This document shows, one piece after another, positions 17,523 through 25,673 of a stretch of DNA of 42,619 nt (position 1 is its first letter; every line of letters begins with the position of its first letter). The notes under the pieces are model-generated. The model saw nothing but the letters and a program-made list of their open reading frames with translations, had not been told where the DNA came from and did no database searches. This DNA is from Phycisphaerae bacterium. Its GTDB lineage: Bacteria; Planctomycetota; Phycisphaerae; UBA1845. The translations under genes and the position numbers were made by a program. The stretch covers positions 1 through 42,619 of the forward strand of contig JAJDDT010000054.1 of NCBI GenBank assembly GCA_029260165.1, in the 5' to 3' direction.

Positions 17523-17993
17523 CTAATCTGACGGATTGGCAGGTTCGGGCATGGAATCTGCCAGTTCACAAATGGCATCGTAGAACTCGTCGCGGTCCAT
17601 GCCGAGCAACGTCGATCCGAAAAGCTCCGCCTCCTCGTGTGAAGCGACATCGCCATAGTTGATTCGCACAATCTGGTACGCAATCAACATGGGCAGCGCC
17701 TCGGGACGACTCGAAAAGCATGGGTGAATATGGAGCGTGAACCCCTCGCCGGGCTGCCGGCCCCTCGGTTCGGGGAAGGCAAATTCGCCGGGGTTGAGAA
17801 GTCGATCGTCGAATACCAACGTCACGGGGTACCGAACAATCTCGCGATCCTCGATAATTCTCAGAATGGCCGCGTGGTCAATTTGTGGACCATACCGCTG
17901 GCGCGCCGTCGCAGCCACCGCGAGGATATGGTCGCGCAATGCGATCGCGCCATCGCGAACGGTGGGTTTGTGCTTACGGAATCGCCTGGCCAT
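17523..17993 (-). CDS. Small unknown protein, tail of octahaem operon
   Basis: A 156-residue soluble protein that I cannot assign. It is basic at the N-terminus (MARRFRKHKPTVRDG) and acidic at the C-terminus, with a central HIHPCFSSRPEALPM and a helical end DEFYDAICELADSM. No signal peptide, membrane segment or haem motif. Its ATG is 24 bases after the stop of the octahaem cytochrome gene on the same strand, so it is probably the last gene of that operon. It could be an accessory or maturation factor, but nothing in the sequence proves this. Confidence 0.6.
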   Translation of the reverse strand: MARRFRKHKPTVRDGAIALRDHILAVAATARQRYGPQIDHAAILRIIEDREIVRYPVTLVFDDRLLNPGEFAFPEPRGRQPGEGFTLHIHPCFSSRPEALPMLIAYQIVRINYGDVASHEEAELFGSTLLGMDRDEFYDAICELADSMPEPANPSD

Positions 17994-18017: not shown

Positions 18018-19487
18018 TCACTTTTTATACCGTTCGCGGAACTCCTTCGCCGCTTTCGCGCGTCGTTCGCGTTCCTTGTCGTCCATGCGGTTTGTGTACC
18101 AGAGGTGCTCGGGTGCGTCGAGAACTTCAGTGATCTTGGCCTGAAGCGCCTCGGCAGCCTTCTTCTTTTCCGGATCGTTCGCGTGCAGGTTGGATTCGAC
18201 AAGTTCCTCAAGCTCGGGAATGTATTCGGTGTAAAAGTGCTTTGCGATTTCGTACGTTCCATGCCAGTGTGTGTAATCGGGACCCATCATGGACGCACCA
18301 TGACGCGCACGTCGTCCTTCGTGGTGCCAGATCTCAAACCATGTAAAGTCGATCTTGTTCGAGAATTTGGCGGGTTTGAGGAGCGGTTTGGCGGCTGCGT
18401 AGAGTGCGGCACCGGGTTTGGCGAACTTATTATTGTACAGCTCGATAAGTTCATCATACTGTACATAAAAATTATGAACCCAGTTCGGGCTGTGGCAGTT
18501 ATGACAAACGTTCTTCATGTTCTCGCGTCGCACCTGCCAAGGCACGTCTTTTCCCGGCAGGCCCATCTTCGCATCCGATACTTCCGGGCGAATAGAAACA
18601 ACCGGGCGATTGTTCCAACTGATTCGCATACCAACATCATGCGTTACCGGCTGATCCTTCGTGGCTGACATGTGGCAGGTTGCACAAGTGGGCGCCGCCC
18701 AATAGTCCTCACCGACGACCCATTTGTTATTCTCCAGATTCATCTTGTGAATGTTTGCAAAAAAGGCGATTCCGTGCTTGGATTCCTCATATATTTCCTT
18801 CTGTGGGTGGTCCGGTCCCATATGACATTTGCCGCAGGTACTGGGATGCCGTGCCTGTGCCGCCGAAAACTCGTGACGCGTATGACACGCCGCACACGCC
18901 CCTTCGGAACCGTCGGGATTAAGACGACCAATGCCGCTGTTGGGCCAGGTCGCGGGATCGAGTTCGCCGTCGGCAAGCACTTTCACCTGGGATCCGTGAC
19001 ATTGCCAGCAGCCCAGGACGGCTGAAGCGGCGTTGCCATCGGGAAATCCCGGACTGACGAAACTGCGGTTGCCCTCGACGACCTCAGCCAGGATGTTGTC
19101 CAGCGACCCGAGAATACGTCCGGCTTTGGCGTGATGGGAATGCACGAATTCCCGAACTTCACGGCTGTGACATCTGGCGCAGTCTTTGGGACTGACGATG
19201 GTGGCAATCGTGTAACTGAAGTGCTCGAACGCATCGACGTCGTCCTCCTCGGCTCCGTGACATTCAAAACAACCGATGTTGGCGCGATAGTGTTTGCTTT
19301 CGCCCCATTGTTGGTACAGACCGCGACTCTCGCGTTTGTGACATTCGACGCACTCTTTGCTTGCCTTGCTGATCTCCGGCAAACCAATCGCCTGCGCCAT
19401 TGCGGAAAGCGGCATGATTATTGTCATGCCGGCCACGAGTGTTCTTGTTTGCAACATCGATCGTAGAAGACTCTGGAATACCGTCAT
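18018..19487 (-). CDS. Octahaem cytochrome c, hydroxylamine-oxidoreductase family
   Basis: A 489-residue exported protein. ATG 19487 is preferred to the overlapping ATG 19502 because AGGAG lies 8 bases upstream. Its signal peptide ends near AMAQA. Eight CxxCH motifs are present (CVECH, CFECH, CARCH, CWQCH, CAACH, CGKCH, CATCH, CHNCH), the count and spacing of HAO-type octahaem cytochromes. The family-like C-terminal block is HNFYVQYDELIELYNNKF, then GASMMGPDYTHWHGTYE near 398-414. The family includes oxidising enzymes (hydroxylamine, hydrazine) and reducing ones (nitrite); whether the cross-linking Tyr of the oxidising type is present needs an alignment. It is coupled to NrfD by a TGATG overlap. 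Confidence 0.87.
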   Translation of the reverse strand: MTVFQSLLRSMLQTRTLVAGMTIIMPLSAMAQAIGLPEISKASKECVECHKRESRGLYQQWGESKHYRANIGCFECHGAEEDDVDAFEHFSYTIATIVSPKDCARCHSREVREFVHSHHAKAGRILGSLDNILAEVVEGNRSFVSPGFPDGNAASAVLGCWQCHGSQVKVLADGELDPATWPNSGIGRLNPDGSEGACAACHTRHEFSAAQARHPSTCGKCHMGPDHPQKEIYEESKHGIAFFANIHKMNLENNKWVVGEDYWAAPTCATCHMSATKDQPVTHDVGMRISWNNRPVVSIRPEVSDAKMGLPGKDVPWQVRRENMKNVCHNCHSPNWVHNFYVQYDELIELYNNKFAKPGAALYAAAKPLLKPAKFSNKIDFTWFEIWHHEGRRARHGASMMGPDYTHWHGTYEIAKHFYTEYIPELEELVESNLHANDPEKKKAAEALQAKITEVLDAPEHLWYTNRMDDKERERRAKAAKEFRERYKK

Positions 19488-19501
19488 TATTGATCTCCTC
19501 A

Positions 19502-20740
19502 TCAGCGAGTCGGTGCCGTGGCGGAAACGCCCTGCGGCTTGATGTCATCGTCGGCGGTCACCCGCCCGGTTAATACGGGAACGGAAATGCGTACGAAAAT
19601 AGTATACAGGAGCAGGCCAAATGCCCAGATACCCAGGCACACCAGTGTCTCATTCAAAGTCGGTTGATACTCGACAAGTTCACCCAGCGGGGACGGAATG
19701 AACGCGGGAATAACCAACCCCATCCCCTTTTCGATCCAGATGCCAATGATCAAAAAGACGCAAGCGACATTCATGAAACGCAGGCTCTTGGTGAACGGAA
19801 GATAGAGAATCACCAACGCAATCGTGTTCAGCACGATCGCGGTCCATATCCAGGGCACCAGCCCGTGATGGCCATGCAAACCGAGATACAAATACTTTGT
19901 GGACACAATGTGTGCGGAGTCGGCGTAGAATTCGGTGAACAATTCGCAGACGAACAGGAACATGTTGACGGTCATCGCAACCGTGACAATGTTGCGCAAC
20001 AGCTTCAGCGCGTCATCACTCACATGGTATCCGGCAAAACGCCGGATCATCTGCAACGTGATGATGATGAAAGCGGGTCCCGCGGCAAATGCCGACGCCA
20101 GAAACCGGGGTGCGATGATCGCGGTATTCCAAAACGGCCGCCCTCCCAATCCAACGAACAGAAAGGCGGTGACTGTGTGAATACTGATCGCCCAACCGAT
20201 GGCGACAAAGACAAATGGAATATAGAACCGTGGACTGGGCTTCACCTTCCGGTAAGCACAGTAAATCAGGTATCCACAAATATGCAGGTTCAGCAGGAGG
20301 TAGCCGCCAAGGGCGACCACGTCCCAGGTGAGCATGGACATGGGAAAATTGAACCGCCAAAACATATGCATGAATCTGTCGGGTCTTCCGAGGTCCACCT
20401 GCACAAACAACAAACACATCGTGATTGACGCAACAGCGAACAGCTCACCAAAAATAACCAAATCGTGCAACTCATGTCGCCGGTAAATATAAACAGGGAT
20501 AACCACCATCACCGCCGCGGCTGCCATGCCCACGAGGTAAACGAAATTCGCAATATATAGACCCCAGGAAACGTGATCGGTCATTCCGGTCGTGACCAGG
20601 CCGTGGACGAGCTGCTTCGCATAGGCGTTGACGCCGAGCAACACAAAAACGGTGAGCATGAGCATCCACGCATGGTATCGCCAATCACCCACGAAGCTCA
20701 GCCGAAAGCACCGCCAGAGAAAACGCAGATACAGTTTCAT
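19502..20740 (-). CDS. NrfD/PsrC-type membrane quinone subunit
   Basis: A 412-residue integral membrane protein with about nine or ten hydrophobic helices starting near residue 24. The N-terminal part (GLYIANFVYLVGMAAAAVMV), the charged loop YIYRRHELHDLVIFGELFAV, LGRPDRFMHMFWRFNFPMSM and the C-terminal IIGIWIEKGMGLVIPAF are typical of the NrfD/PsrC/DmsC-like family, which carries quinone redox chemistry and no haem of its own. Its ATG overlaps the end of the iron-sulfur gene by 4 bases and its stop is shared with the next gene's start, so all three should assemble as one complex. Confidence 0.9.
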   Translation of the reverse strand: MKLYLRFLWRCFRLSFVGDWRYHAWMLMLTVFVLLGVNAYAKQLVHGLVTTGMTDHVSWGLYIANFVYLVGMAAAAVMVVIPVYIYRRHELHDLVIFGELFAVASITMCLLFVQVDLGRPDRFMHMFWRFNFPMSMLTWDVVALGGYLLLNLHICGYLIYCAYRKVKPSPRFYIPFVFVAIGWAISIHTVTAFLFVGLGGRPFWNTAIIAPRFLASAFAAGPAFIIITLQMIRRFAGYHVSDDALKLLRNIVTVAMTVNMFLFVCELFTEFYADSAHIVSTKYLYLGLHGHHGLVPWIWTAIVLNTIALVILYLPFTKSLRFMNVACVFLIIGIWIEKGMGLVIPAFIPSPLGELVEYQPTLNETLVCLGIWAFGLLLYTIFVRISVPVLTGRVTADDDIKPQGVSATAPTR

Positions 20741-21750
20741 GCGTGATCACCTCCCGGGATCACAGGAGAAGACATCCCATGCTCATTGCGCGGATAGTCT
20801 TCATCGAAGTAATAGAAGAAACGCGGCAGGGTGCCAACCTCCTGCTTCAGCACGAAGACGTGCTTGTTCCTGAGGATTTGCGAAACCTCGCTCTCCGGAT
20901 CGAGAACGTTTCCAAACTTTCGCGCGCCGACCGGGCATACCTCGAGACACGCAGGCATGCGACCTTCACGCGTGCGCTGCAGACAAAAATGGCATTTCTC
21001 CATCACACCCTTCTTGCGAGGCCGATTGGAAAGATAGGCCATGTCCGGATTGATCTTGTCGCGGGGAATTTGCGGTTCGGCGTAGTTGAATCGTCGCGCC
21101 CAATAGGGACAAGCTGCCTCGCAATACCGACAGCCGATGCACCAGTCGTAATCGATCACAACAATACCGTCCTGTTCCTTCCAGGTGGCTTCCACCGGGC
21201 AGACCTTGACGCATGGCGGGTTGGCACACTGATGACACTGAACCGGCATGTAATAGTGATCGGGATCGGGAACCGTCGGATGATCGTAGTCGTGACGCCC
21301 CTGCTCGAGGTCAATACTGCCCCTGGGCATTTCGAGCACGCGGATGTACTGAATCTCAGGCGACCGGCTCGTGTTGTTTTCCTGTGCACAGGCGTGCACG
21401 CATCGCCGACACCCGATACACCGCCCCAGATGCAGGGCGTACACAAATTCCACCCCGTCGTTCGCCTTGATATCCCGTAATTCAGGCCGAACCGCGTAGC
21501 GTTGCTCAACCTCCACACGAATCCGATCGAGGACCGCCTCCATGTCCTCCGGGGTCATTTCCTTGTAGTGCTTCTGAAGAAACTTCTCGATCGTGAAGTC
21601 TTCGGTGTCCAGAAAACGAAGCGGACTAAGCGCAGCTCCCAGTGCAGCCACACCGCCAGCCGCTCCGAGGCTGCCACGCAGAAAACTCCGACGCGAAAGC
21701 TTGTCACGCTTGCCGCATTCTTCAGTTGGCTGTTGATCCGCAGGATTCAT
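20737..21750 (-). CDS. Tat-exported four-cluster iron-sulfur protein
   Basis: A 337-residue electron carrier. The N-terminus has a twin-arginine signal (LSRRSFLRGSLGAAGGVAAL), so the folded protein should be exported. Four Cys groups suit four [4Fe-4S] clusters: GRCIGCRRCVHACAQEN, CHQCANPPCVKVCPVEATW, DWCIGCRYCEAACPYWARRF and CHFCLQRTREGRMPACLEVC. This order is that of the DmsB/PsrB/HybA/NrfC group. It would move electrons between the NrfD-type subunit and the multihaem cytochromes. It overlaps its neighbours by 4 bases at both ends (20737-20740 and 21747-21750). Confidence 0.92.
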   Translation of the reverse strand: MNPADQQPTEECGKRDKLSRRSFLRGSLGAAGGVAALGAALSPLRFLDTEDFTIEKFLQKHYKEMTPEDMEAVLDRIRVEVEQRYAVRPELRDIKANDGVEFVYALHLGRCIGCRRCVHACAQENNTSRSPEIQYIRVLEMPRGSIDLEQGRHDYDHPTVPDPDHYYMPVQCHQCANPPCVKVCPVEATWKEQDGIVVIDYDWCIGCRYCEAACPYWARRFNYAEPQIPRDKINPDMAYLSNRPRKKGVMEKCHFCLQRTREGRMPACLEVCPVGARKFGNVLDPESEVSQILRNKHVFVLKQEVGTLPRFFYYFDEDYPRNEHGMSSPVIPGGDHA

Positions 21751-22544
21751 CCCTCATCCTCCAGTTCCTCGTCCGAATCCGCCTCGTCATCGGTCGGTCG
21801 GTTGACCGAATCCCCATTGGCACGATCCCAGGCAGTATGATCCCGGATTGCACGACGGAGCGGATCGCGCAACCCGTCGTCGTGTTTGTCGGGTTCGTTC
21901 TCTCGGTGGACGATGTGGTCACGCCCCATGCGCAGTGTATCAGGCCCGGGCAACGGCACCACCGGATCCATGGCGGGAACACGCGGATTGTGGGGGTCGT
22001 GACATTCGGTGCACCGGAGGCGACGCGCAACACCGCGTGACGCATCCCAGTAGCCGTTGGTTCGACCGTGGGCACCATGCTGCCAGTCACGATAGGTTGG
22101 CCCGTGGCACTTGGCGCAAAGCACCTCCACATCATTGTACCCGATCATCTCACTACCCCGCAGCACGAGCCGATTCCGGTCTTTGGTGTCGTGGCAATTT
22201 CGACATTGCTTGTTAATGCCGTGGTTGAGGACGACGTCACTGTGTTGCAGGAGTGCCCGAGGCGGATCGTCGCGCGGGGGGAACATCTGATGGCAATCCT
22301 TGCAGGTACGGTCGTATCCGTCGATGTTGATCGTCGGAGGGTCGTGCAGAATTTTTCGCCGCGGAGCGATGGAGAGATGGGCAGGGTCGATCGGGACGAC
22401 CTGCTTGTCCGGAATGTCGAGCAATTCGGGGCCGACAGCAAACCAAACCGCCAGGCCGAAAAAAAACGGTCCGATCCCGAAGGCGACCCAACCGGGAATG
22501 GCTGGCCTGGGACCGGGTTCTGAGCTGTCTGCCGTGTCGGACAT
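21747..22544 (-). CDS. Membrane-anchored tetrahaem cytochrome c
   Basis: About 265 residues from ATG 22544; a GTG at 22559 is an alternative. A single hydrophobic segment near residues 18-38 (PGWVAFGIGPFFFGLAVWFA) anchors it. The exported part has four CxxCH motifs (CKDCH, CRNCH, CAKCH, CTECH), with many extra histidines as likely axial ligands. The C-terminus is very acidic (DDEADSDEELEDEG). It is the first gene of the operon and may link the quinone-side complex to the octahaem cytochrome. Not NrfH or NapC by size or motif order that I can recognise. Confidence 0.82.
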   Translation of the reverse strand: MSDTADSSEPGPRPAIPGWVAFGIGPFFFGLAVWFAVGPELLDIPDKQVVPIDPAHLSIAPRRKILHDPPTINIDGYDRTCKDCHQMFPPRDDPPRALLQHSDVVLNHGINKQCRNCHDTKDRNRLVLRGSEMIGYNDVEVLCAKCHGPTYRDWQHGAHGRTNGYWDASRGVARRLRCTECHDPHNPRVPAMDPVVPLPGPDTLRMGRDHIVHRENEPDKHDDGLRDPLRRAIRDHTAWDRANGDSVNRPTDDEADSDEELEDEG

Positions 22545-22831: not shown

Positions 22832-25342
22832 TCAGATCGTGAACTTACCAACGAGGGACTTGAGATCGTTGGACAGCCTGGACAATTCAACACCAGCCTC
22901 CTGCGTCTGAGCAGCATCTTTGGACGCCTGACGGGCACCCTGATCCACACTGGTGATATTATTCGTGATTTCTTTCGCCGCGTCCGCGGATTGCCCCACG
23001 CCGCTCGAAACGGTCTCCGCCGCCGTCGCGGTCCTCGCAATATTCTGGGCGATTTCTCTGGTGGTGATGCTCTGCTCCTCCACTGCAGCCGCAATCGTGC
23101 GTGACACTTCGTTAACCTTGTCGATCACGTCGCTGATCTGTCCAATGGACGAAACCGCGATGCCCGTCGAATTCTGGATGCCCTCGATCCGCTGACGGAT
23201 GTCCTCGGTGGCTTCAGCCGTCTGTTTGGCAAGCTCCTTGACCTCGGTTGCAACCACGGCAAACCCCTTCCCGGCATCACCCGCTCGGGCAGCTTCGATC
23301 GTGGCATTCAATGCGAGCAGATTGGTCTGCTCGGCGATATCCTGAATCGTTTCGATCACCTTGCCAATCTCGTCCGCGGCTGAACCAAGCTGGCCGATGT
23401 TTTCGTTACTGGTCCTGGCGAGACCGGAAGCCTGTTCGGCGACGCCGGCAGCCTGCTCAGCACTCTTGGCAATTTCGCCGACGGTCGCGGTCATTTCCTC
23501 TACCGCCGCCGCCACCGTTTTGACGTTTGACGACATCGCTTCGGTAGAGTTGGCCATCGAGCCCATGTTCGCGGACATCTCCTCAGCCGCAGCCGCAACA
23601 GACGCCGATTGTTCCGTCGTGGCTTCTGCGCCGCTGGCAAGTTGCGTCGCGGTGGCGGTTAGTTCGCTCGACGATCCTCCCAGTGTTTCAGCATTGGAGG
23701 CGAGGTTCTGCATCGTCTTGCGAAGACTGTCCGCCATACCGTTGAGCGCCCTGGCCAATACCCCGATCTCGTCGTTCTGATTGATGTCGACCTGGTGCGT
23801 CAGGTCACCCCCGGCAACCGTTTCGGCGAATGCCACGCTCTTGAGAAGAGGCCCGACAATGCCACGCGTGATACAGAATGCGAACAACGAACCAGCCAGC
23901 GCAATGACGAGCATGAGTGCGATCGAAGCCTGGTGCGACTCCCTCTTCGCAGCCATCGCGAGGTGTTCGCTTCGCTCCGCAAGCGCCTCGACCGACTGTA
24001 AGATCTGCTCCATTCCTTCGGCACAATCGATCAGTATGGCAGCCACGATCAGCTTGTTCTCAACGACTTTCGTCAGAAGACTCTGGTACCTGTCAAGTTC
24101 GTGTTCGACCCTGGCGAGAGCAGCCAGGTCTTCCGCCTCTTCGGATTCGTCACTGGCGCAGCGGGGGATCAGTTCCTCGACAGTCTTCAACTCAGCGCGC
24201 AGGCTGCCAAGCTCCTGCTCCAACACTCCGACCCGTCCAATCCTGCCATCCAGGAGAAACCCCGCCTCCTCCTTTGAAATCCTGACCGCCAGCAACTCAC
24301 AATCGAGCAGTTTTTTGGTCAACTCCGTTTGCAACGCAATCTGCGCGTCGGAAGCCCCGTTCGACTGCAATGATACCAAATCAGCCTCGTGCTCATGGAC
24401 GACATGCCCAAGCTGCTCATCCACCCGTTCACCAAGTGTGTCAAGCTTCGCTTTGTCCTTCCCAATCTCTTGAAATTTCATAGCAAGATCGGCAAAGGAC
24501 GTCTCATACCGATCGATCAATTCCTGCATTGATGACAAGGTTGCAAGCTCTGTTTCATCGAGGTCGAATGACGTACGGATACTCTTGAAGTCCGTGCCAT
24601 ACTCATCAACCACGGCTGCATGCTCTTTGAGGATTTCTTCGCCATGCGCCTTGTTTTCGAATCCGAACGTGATGAATTCGTATTGCAGTTTACTCATTTC
24701 CGACCCCATCACGCTCAACTCCAGGGTGGCCAACGCCATGTCAGACTCCTCGCTGACCTGATCGAGGAAGCGACTGCCAAACCATCCACCCGCCACGCCC
24801 AACGCCACGACGACCCCGAAACCCCCGTACATTTTGCGCGAAATGCCCAAGCGGCCCAAAACACCACTCTTGACCGCCAGCCAGCCACCGCCACCGGCAA
24901 TCGCCAGGCCGATCAATATTTTTGTGACAAGACTCATTCCCTCCGCAGGTAGCGGCATGGAAAGGGCGGCCGTGTGAACCTCGCGGTTGCGTGCCTGATC
25001 CAGTCCGGCGAGTCTGACGGGATCGACCAGCGTCACCGGCGCTGCCTGGACCGTCGCGGCAGTGCGTACAGAATCACCGTGCCCACTGTCGTGACTGCCC
25101 ACAGCCTCATGGCTGGCTGTCGCGCTGGCATCTTTATGTCCACCGTCCTGGGTGCCCTCAGCATGATTGCTGGTTACTGCGTTGGTTTCTTCGTGTTCGC
25201 CACCATCGTGCGGTTGATCAACAGCTTGCGCTGGTGGAGTTACCACAACCGGCTCAATTGCATATGCGATTTGGTTTGCATAAAAAACGAACAGGCTGCC
25301 ACACAAGACCACAAATATCGATTTTCCCTTGGTATTCATCAT
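22832..25342 (-). CDS. Chemoreceptor with His-rich exported N-terminal segment
   Basis: 836 residues from ATG 25342, with GGAG about 6 bases upstream. A signal-peptide-like N-terminus ([19 protein letters not shown]) is followed by a low-complexity His/Gly/Asp/Ala region near 40-90 ([14 protein letters not shown] and similar), a linker, two membrane helices near 138-190, a long helical sensory part, a third membrane helix ([18 protein letters not shown]), HAMP and a complete signalling hairpin ([20 protein letters not shown]). The His-rich part is unusual for a chemoreceptor and may bind metal ions. No CheA, CheW or CheR genes are nearby. It lies 270 bases upstream of the redox operon's far end on the same strand. 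Confidence 0.85.
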
Positions 25343-25673
25343 GACACGCTCCACTTGCACAACGCGCAGCTGTTTCCGCCGCTGGTTTTAGAGATTTGCT
25401 ACGAATCCTCCTCGCTGCATCGGTGTGAAGCAGCGACACAACACGTCCTGACACGAGCAGTGACCCTTACCTCGACATGAATCCACGGTCGAATTAGCTC
25501 CAAGACGACCGAAATAGTGCCTACCCATGGCTGAAAAACCCGTAAATCACTCGACAAAACCCGGTTTTGCACCCTGGCTTTAGTTGATGGAGGGGATGGG
25601 CCGGGCCGGCTGCGGAATTTGGGGTTGTTTTGCCATTCATGTCTCACGGTAGAGGTGCCTGGGGAGCGATAAC

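Follow-up and report, generated by a model that had tools for sequence, protein, structure and literature searches.

Two thermophiles grow by nitrate ammonification without NrfA, and beside their nap genes lies a four-gene locus coding for a HaoA-homologous multihaem cytochrome, an NrfD protein, a 4Fe-4S protein and a transmembrane cytochrome c, for which nitrite reduction was proposed as a hypothesis, with sulfur compounds as the alternative (Slobodkina et al. 2017, PMC5276818). A matching cluster had been noted earlier, with a guess at a cytoplasmic orientation (PMC4911364). Here we describe an operon of similar content in a 42,619-nucleotide contig of a Phycisphaerae bacterium (JAJDDT010000054.1, assembly GCA_029260165.1; the whole stretch is called the window), in which genes for a tetrahaem cytochrome c (cyt4), an iron-sulfur protein (FeS), an NrfD-family membrane protein (NrfD) and an octahaem cytochrome (OCC) are followed by one for a small conserved protein. 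The likeness to the thermophile locus is one of gene descriptions, not of sequence, and the window holds no nap genes. A first-pass annotation of the window knew of no standard name for this gene order; by the two papers, the arrangement is already described.

We propose that the operon probably encodes a quinol-dependent periplasmic nitrite reductase, which would reduce nitrite, probably to ammonium, with OCC doing the job of NrfA. NrfD would oxidise quinol, and may also move protons; the 4x[4Fe-4S] protein would accept its electrons; the membrane-anchored tetrahaem cytochrome would relay them to OCC; and OCC would reduce nitrite, perhaps hydroxylamine too, most likely through to ammonium. 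We infer this electron path and its direction, the substrate, the product and the formation of a complex. The sequences themselves give the protein families, the haem counts, a tryptophan at the position of the cross-link tyrosine of HAO, the gene order, a linkage to NapA and a pattern in the occurrence of NrfA. The first-pass annotation had left the choice between reduction and the reverse oxidation open; because of the tryptophan, the NapA linkage and the NrfA pattern, nitrite reduction is now favoured, although it is unproven.

The octahaem cytochrome and its active site

Judged by sequence, OCC belongs to the HAO family, to the kind without the cross-link tyrosine. The family assignment, put forward in the first pass together with a proposed alignment check, held because of the PF13447 match, which clears its cut-off, the matches of the OCC profile to entries of the PDB and the nine HAO-family entries that topped a structural comparison. 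In a single-sequence search of solved structures 4qo5, which we take to be an Ignicoccus octahaem cytochrome, came first, followed by NeHAO, the Kuenenia and Brocadia HAO relatives and HDH. A profile built from 25 relatives matched 4qo5 with 263 bits, 6h5l with 150 and NeHAO with 149. An AlphaFold2 (AF2) model of OCC, of moderate quality (predicted local distance difference test, pLDDT, 72.5), was compared with 302 chains, and the top nine matches were all HAO-family (Z 13.3 to 8.3; 187-221 residues aligned, covering only residues about 211-446); NrfA ranked lower (Z about 4-5), as did an octahaem nitrite reductase. Because a Z below about 13 may lack specificity when proteins are helical, the sequence evidence is the stronger. 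Examined as a possible NrfA, OCC contained no CxxCK motif, all eight of its haem motifs being CxxCH, and gave no match to PF02335 up to 0.01.

Residues were counted in 78 sequences, the window and 77 other loci (loci, genomes and families carry our own L, G and f numbers; L077, L099 and L103, whose reading is truncated or broken, are excluded), and the invariance reported here applies to close relatives of OCC only. Eight CxxCH motifs were present in 77 of the 78 and seven in one. Asp231 and His232 aligned with Asp267-His268 of NeHAO, presumably its active-site pair, the first column being D in 77/78 sequences and the second H in all of them. The counterpart of NeHAO Tyr467, which we take to be the cross-link tyrosine, is Trp413, by a weak alignment (E 0.0024); this column is Trp in 78/78, and Met405, eight residues ahead, is likewise Met in 78/78. 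The neighbouring Tyr410 was rejected as the cross-link residue, its column being Y in 66/78 and otherwise I, F or W, with the Tyr467 column falling at 413. The column of NeHAO residue 334 (presumably a tyrosine) is Arg299 in OCC and R in 76/78. The cross-link check suggested in the first pass thus located the column, but the residue in it is tryptophan and the tyrosine is absent. A tryptophan with a methionine eight residues before it is the pair described for Campylobacterota Hao (PMC8940962); OCC carries this pair of the reductive type and, to the extent that the weak alignment holds, lacks the tyrosine of oxidative HAO and HDH.

Spread of the gene set and its relation to NapA and NrfA

The gene order was surveyed in 60 related genomes (the order sample) and at the best 80 of at least 573 confirmed OCC places, found via two peptide patterns of the OCC subfamily. 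OCC matches were found in 47 of the 60 genomes and a window-type NrfD in 16, all of which have OCC; the two adjoin in 15 of these 16, the exception (G024) being a genome of 67% completeness whose OCC is partial and lies far away from NrfD. Among the best 80 loci, the cyt4-FeS-NrfD module accompanies OCC in 49, lying upstream as in the window in 42, downstream (OCC first) in six and divergently in one. In two of the 49 (L087 and L133) a contig end truncates NrfD; L118, whose 21% match belongs to another complex, is not counted as having NrfD; and at least six of the 31 loci without the module have less than 3.5 kb upstream of OCC, so that its absence there is uncertain. The gene set is not a chance assembly, because of the family E-values and the same order recurring in other records. 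By its own account the first-pass annotation would fall with a cytochrome outside the HAO family or an order kept in no relative; the cytochrome lies inside the family and the order is conserved.

By their record labels, which are unchecked, the module carriers belong to Planctomycetota (one Scalindua), Verrucomicrobiota, Hydrogenedentota, Myxococcota, Thermodesulfobacteriota, Acidobacteriota, Aminicenantes, Bdellovibrionota, Campylobacterota and Cloacimonadota; no module was seen at the gammaproteobacterial and Nitrospirota OCCs among the best 80 loci. On a quick tree the label 'module upstream' changes 9 times, against a shuffled mean of 27.6, and the starred branches force at least three changes. 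Other close OCCs (67-74% identity) occur without the module. In a group of OCCs of about 47% identity, a cytochrome b family gene lies near OCC in eight loci, on the OCC strand in seven (one member identified), and NapA is found in four loci.

Variations on the locus were observed. In L051, L053, L054, L055, L056, L058 and L067 a cytochrome b family gene replaces the NrfD module beside a distant OCC (about 47%). In OCC-first loci (L105:10438-10809, L128:10455-10901 and L130) a different small protein family, of 123-148 aa in two of them, stands between OCC and the module. L170 (G076:C19) is a second, diverged cyt4-FeS-NrfD-OCC operon (OCC 53-54%), whose genome contains the close copy as well. 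G006:C215 (L062) carries OCC twice, in opposite orientations and with equal scores, which may reflect an inverted duplication or an artefact of assembly.

NapA, called by tblastn, was found in the available flanks of 12 of the 49 loci with module and OCC and of eight of the other 31. Several NapA pass the NCBIfam NapA cut-off, with up to 1468 bits, and others do not: among nine scanned, which include one from a locus without OCC (L165), those of L036, L086, L094 and L165 fall below it. NapG and NapH were recognised in L103, as was a NapB of sub-threshold score in L101. Module, OCC and NapA stand together in L117, and L171 (genome G112) carries cyt4-FeS-NrfD-OCC-NapA-tetrahaem-small on one strand. 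Modules without OCC, whose NrfD is 51-59% identical, were seen in 20 genomes, and NapA adjoined the module in 13/13 of the loci fetched, of which L165 alone was scanned with NCBIfam and L166 has, where its contig ends, no more than a fragment of NapA.

Within the order sample, NrfA (PF02335) was found in 1/45 genomes that carry OCC (at E up to 1e-50) and in 7/15 that lack it (p 0.0001); the only genome with both, G040, is a module carrier. In a phylum sample of 244 genomes, OCC was present in 77, NrfA in 66 and both in 16. Twelve of these genomes have an NrfD of at least 67% identity (counting in addition G278, at 58%, with an adjoining OCC). All twelve have OCC, adjacent to NrfD in 11 (in G132 NrfD lies at a contig end and OCC is not adjacent), and none has NrfA, whereas NrfA is present in 13 of the 20 genomes whose NrfD is 51-59% identical and has no OCC beside it (0/12 against 13/20, p 0.0004, in a two-class comparison that leaves out 17 of the 49 NrfD genomes, at 41-46% identity). 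This pattern suggests that OCC may stand in for NrfA.

Several observations weigh against a nitrite reductase of this kind. Across the 244 genomes there was no significant exclusion between OCC and NrfA (16/77 with OCC against 50/167 without, p 0.16), and a difference appeared (7/64 against 50/167, p 0.002) only after 13 OCC-bearing genomes of family f54 were set aside. The 17 genomes with an NrfD of 41-46% fit neither class, OCC being present in 11, NrfA in six and both in four, and they lower our confidence slightly. The genomes are related, so the p-values overstate. Neither NapA (at 1e-150) nor NarG (at 1e-50) was found in this genome, and a candidate nitrate reductase is present in only five of the 16 module genomes (NarG in G014, sub-threshold TIGR03479 matches in G000, which is this genome, G027 and G048, and a NapA-like protein in G054); no TIGR03479 match rose above the cut-off in the 60 genomes. 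The modules without OCC beside NapA suggest that the module may feed a nitrate reductase. In published work, the octahaem cytochrome of orange Beggiatoa also oxidises hydroxylamine and hydrazine, according to the title of a cited paper, the recombinant orange protein was weakly active, and nitrite did not support growth of Ca. Thioglobus autotrophicus, which carries an OCC homologue (PMC6449678).

On a wider scale we tentatively suggest, with somewhat less than even confidence, that there is a modular route of nitrite ammonification independent of NrfA in about ten phyla (by the unchecked labels of metagenome-assembled genomes), in which a DsrJOP-like quinol module would serve the periplasmic reduction of both nitrate and nitrite, with either an NrfA encoded elsewhere or an HAO-family octahaem enzyme of the same operon as terminal nitrite reductase. 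What is added here to earlier descriptions is the breadth of the gene set, the dedicated module, the assignment of Trp413 and the NrfA pattern; neither the breadth nor the pattern was found in the open-licence papers searched. If the reading as a nitrite reductase is right, genomes scored as having no nitrite reductase may reduce nitrite, probably to ammonium, a product that keeps nitrogen in the ecosystem, and genomes scored as hydroxylamine oxidisers by a match to a 'hao' model may be nitrite reducers; OCC with its quinol module would be one testable cassette.

Operon layout and genome context

The five genes lie on the minus strand in the order cyt4, FeS, NrfD, OCC and small gene (Table 1). 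Re-reading the coordinates upheld the first-pass picture of a four-gene operon on one strand with a fifth small gene 24 bases behind; the range assigned to it, 18018-22544, covers the four genes, but the fifth lies outside. Of the overlaps of 1-4 bases described at three junctions, those between cyt4 and FeS and between FeS and NrfD stand, at 4 bases each. NrfD and OCC overlap by 1 base if OCC begins at 19502 and are separated by a 14-base gap if it begins at 19487. The true start may be the ATG at 19487: an AGGAG lies upstream of it, and in L031, an 84% relative, OCC starts at the equivalent Met, 29 bases past its NrfD. Across 40 relatives that share this order, the spacing between NrfD and OCC ranges from overlap to 325 bases.

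Table 1. Features of the octahaem cytochrome operon, in window coordinates
Feature	Coordinates	Strand	Description
cyt4	21747..22544	-	tetrahaem cytochrome c, 265 aa; 4 CxxCH; PF14522 1.4e-06; Cytochrome_C7-type
FeS	20737..21750	-	4x[4Fe-4S] protein, 337 aa, DsrO-like; predicted Tat-exported; PF13247 4.7e-19
NrfD	19502..20740	-	membrane quinone subunit of the NrfD family, DsrP-like, 412 aa; PF03916 1e-35
OCC	18018..19502	-	octahaem HAO-family cytochrome, 494 aa; 8 CxxCH; PF13447 2.4e-23; alternative start ATG 19487
Asp231-His232 codons	18807..18812	-	aligned with NeHAO Asp267-His268 pair
Trp413 codon	18264..18266	-	aligned with NeHAO residue 467; weak match, E 0.0024
small conserved protein	17523..17993	-	156 aa; 24 bases after OCC

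The motifs named in the first pass (4 and 8 CxxCH, four Cys clusters, an RR signal, NrfD) were all recovered. The tetrahaem cytochrome has a single N-terminal hydrophobic segment, about residues 20-44, as a membrane anchor, keeps its four CxxCH motifs in 43/43 relatives scored and occupies the place in the operon that DsrJ or NrfB would have. FeS contains 17 Cys, 16 of which were read as four groups of four, and its Tat-like motif SRRSFLR stands at residue 19; such a motif was found in 37/47 relatives. NrfD has hydropathy peaks all along the chain. The NrfD and 4x[4Fe-4S] families agree with the quinone-type membrane module supposed in the first pass; its observations are confirmed and its interpretation is partly supported. 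Against NCBIfam models, FeS scored 179.5 bits for DsrO, just below the cut-off of 200, and NrfD 405 bits for DsrP (NF045798), above the cut-off of 350; by these scores the module is nearer to DsrO/DsrP than to NrfC, and automatic annotation could wrongly imply sulfate reduction.

The small protein had no Pfam or NCBIfam match up to 0.01, and in the PDB nothing matched it at an E of up to 0.001; its AF2 model has a pLDDT of 95.6. A hidden Markov model of it matched in 26 of the 49 loci with module and OCC and in none of the 31 others; in three of the 26 the gene sits behind nap genes and not beside OCC. Among 17 further loci it was found in one, the OCC carrier L171. Our guess is that it acts in maturation or as an accessory factor. 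A chemoreceptor gene (MCPsignal and HAMP; window 22832-25360), also on the minus strand, lies upstream and may or may not be linked to the operon.

Elsewhere in this genome no NrfA was found at 1e-10, no NirK at 1e-30 (NirS and nitric oxide reductases were not searched for) and no dsrA at 1e-30. The sub-threshold TIGR03479 match turned out to be NxrA-like: a 1174-residue protein (L156:5958-9482, own genome G000:C66) aligns with subunit A of the Kuenenia nitrite oxidoreductase (7b04) along almost its entire length, at 1761 bits, and a frame resembling an iron-sulfur subunit adjoins it. From its sequence, this protein could supply or consume nitrite; an external source of nitrite is also conceivable in our proposal. 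A 924-residue molybdopterin-type protein, 33% identical to NapA, was also seen beside a 978-residue frame with 10 CxxCH (L153:6968-12671, own genome G000:C5).

Alternative functions and comparison with described systems

The best of the alternatives keeps the quinol-linked complex and has OCC stop at nitric oxide, which would make the reaction a step of denitrification and not of ammonification. Kuenenia kustc0458 reportedly stops at nitric oxide, 6h5l, an anammox HAO-like protein of the reducing kind, ranks second among the profile matches of OCC, and NirK was above the cut-off in 0/60 genomes of the order sample; for Phycisphaerae without nirK and nirS, Onr-type nitrite reduction to nitric oxide or ammonium has been suggested, and such proteins have already been called Onr-like there (PMC11266412). 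The NrfA pattern, however, points to an ammonium former, and the thermophiles with the matching locus produce ammonium (PMC5276818), so we regard a stop at nitric oxide as rather unlikely, though worth keeping in view. Less probable again is that the module is chiefly a quinol dehydrogenase for a Nap-type nitrate reductase, with OCC as a side client or independent neighbour. NapA adjoins the module in the 13 fetched loci without OCC and in 12 of the 49 with it, but only G054 of the 16 module genomes has a NapA-like match better than 1e-64, yet module and OCC are adjacent in 15 of them, and a fourteenth fetched locus without OCC (L169, NrfD 45%) has no NapA. Oxidation of hydroxylamine (or hydrazine) with delivery of electrons to quinone we hold to be improbable: membership in the HAO family and the activities of the orange Beggiatoa protein speak for it, whereas the tryptophan at the cross-link position and the NapA linkage speak against it (ammonia-oxidation genes were not searched for). 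A sulfur-compound reductase of the MccA/SirA, Otr or Dsr type is the least probable, since, although NrfD scores as DsrP, MccACD shares the three-part design (PMC8076601), tetrathionate or polysulfide has been named as an alternative (PMC5276818) and the two genomes of 60 with dsrA (G040 and G041) both carry the module, each of the eight OCC haem motifs is a plain CxxCH, this genome has no dsrA, nor have 14/16 module genomes, and in G041 it is a separate 45% NrfD copy that adjoins dsrA.

The nitrite reductase that we favour resembles several described systems in parts. The NrfABCD complex of E. coli has the same succession of quinol, NrfD, iron-sulfur protein, multihaem carrier and periplasmic multihaem enzyme (PMC12285233, PMC8076601), but the catalytic part in the window is an octahaem HAO-family protein without CxxCK, and the carrier has four haems where that of NrfABCD has five. 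With DsrJ-DsrO-DsrP the operon shares cytochrome, iron-sulfur and NrfD-type subunits. It differs in the haem number of the cytochrome (four, against three in DsrJ) and in the attached OCC, and no frame for DsrM or DsrK lies between the five genes (the two were not searched for genome-wide); membership in DsrMKJOP was rejected on the four haems of cyt4 and the absence of dsrA. MccA and SirA have one atypical haem site. The eight regular CxxCH motifs of OCC, an HAO-family protein, include no such site, and identity with MccA/SirA was rejected, although the MccACD/SirACD sulfite reductase likewise joins an octahaem enzyme to iron-sulfur and NrfD-type partners (PMC8076601). In its available text this NrfD review lists NrfABCD, MccACD and DsrMKJOP, and the word 'octaheme' was not found there; other NrfD clusters are described in PMC10732223.

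Among octahaem proteins, Campylobacterota Hao and Kuenenia kustc0457/0458 (6h5l) are, like OCC, HAO relatives held to be reductive, and one of their known partners is a small cytochrome. The other known partner is a membrane tetrahaem CycB (PMC5276818), and, unlike OCC, they are not known to have an NrfD module as partner; the tryptophan and methionine pair is shared between Campylobacterota Hao and OCC (PMC8940962). The octahaem cytochrome of orange Beggiatoa (BOGUAY_0691), described as soluble, forms ammonia from nitrite in vitro (PMC6052272) and clusters with proteins of Thiomargarita (PMC6449678). It is likened to OCC through the Thiomargarita locus L137 and not by its own sequence: the L137 protein is 62% identical to OCC over the best segment, its ends are similar to the ones that the published primers of the orange gene encode, and no module was found in the available flanks of L137 (3.8 kb in all) or of the Thioglobus locus L122.

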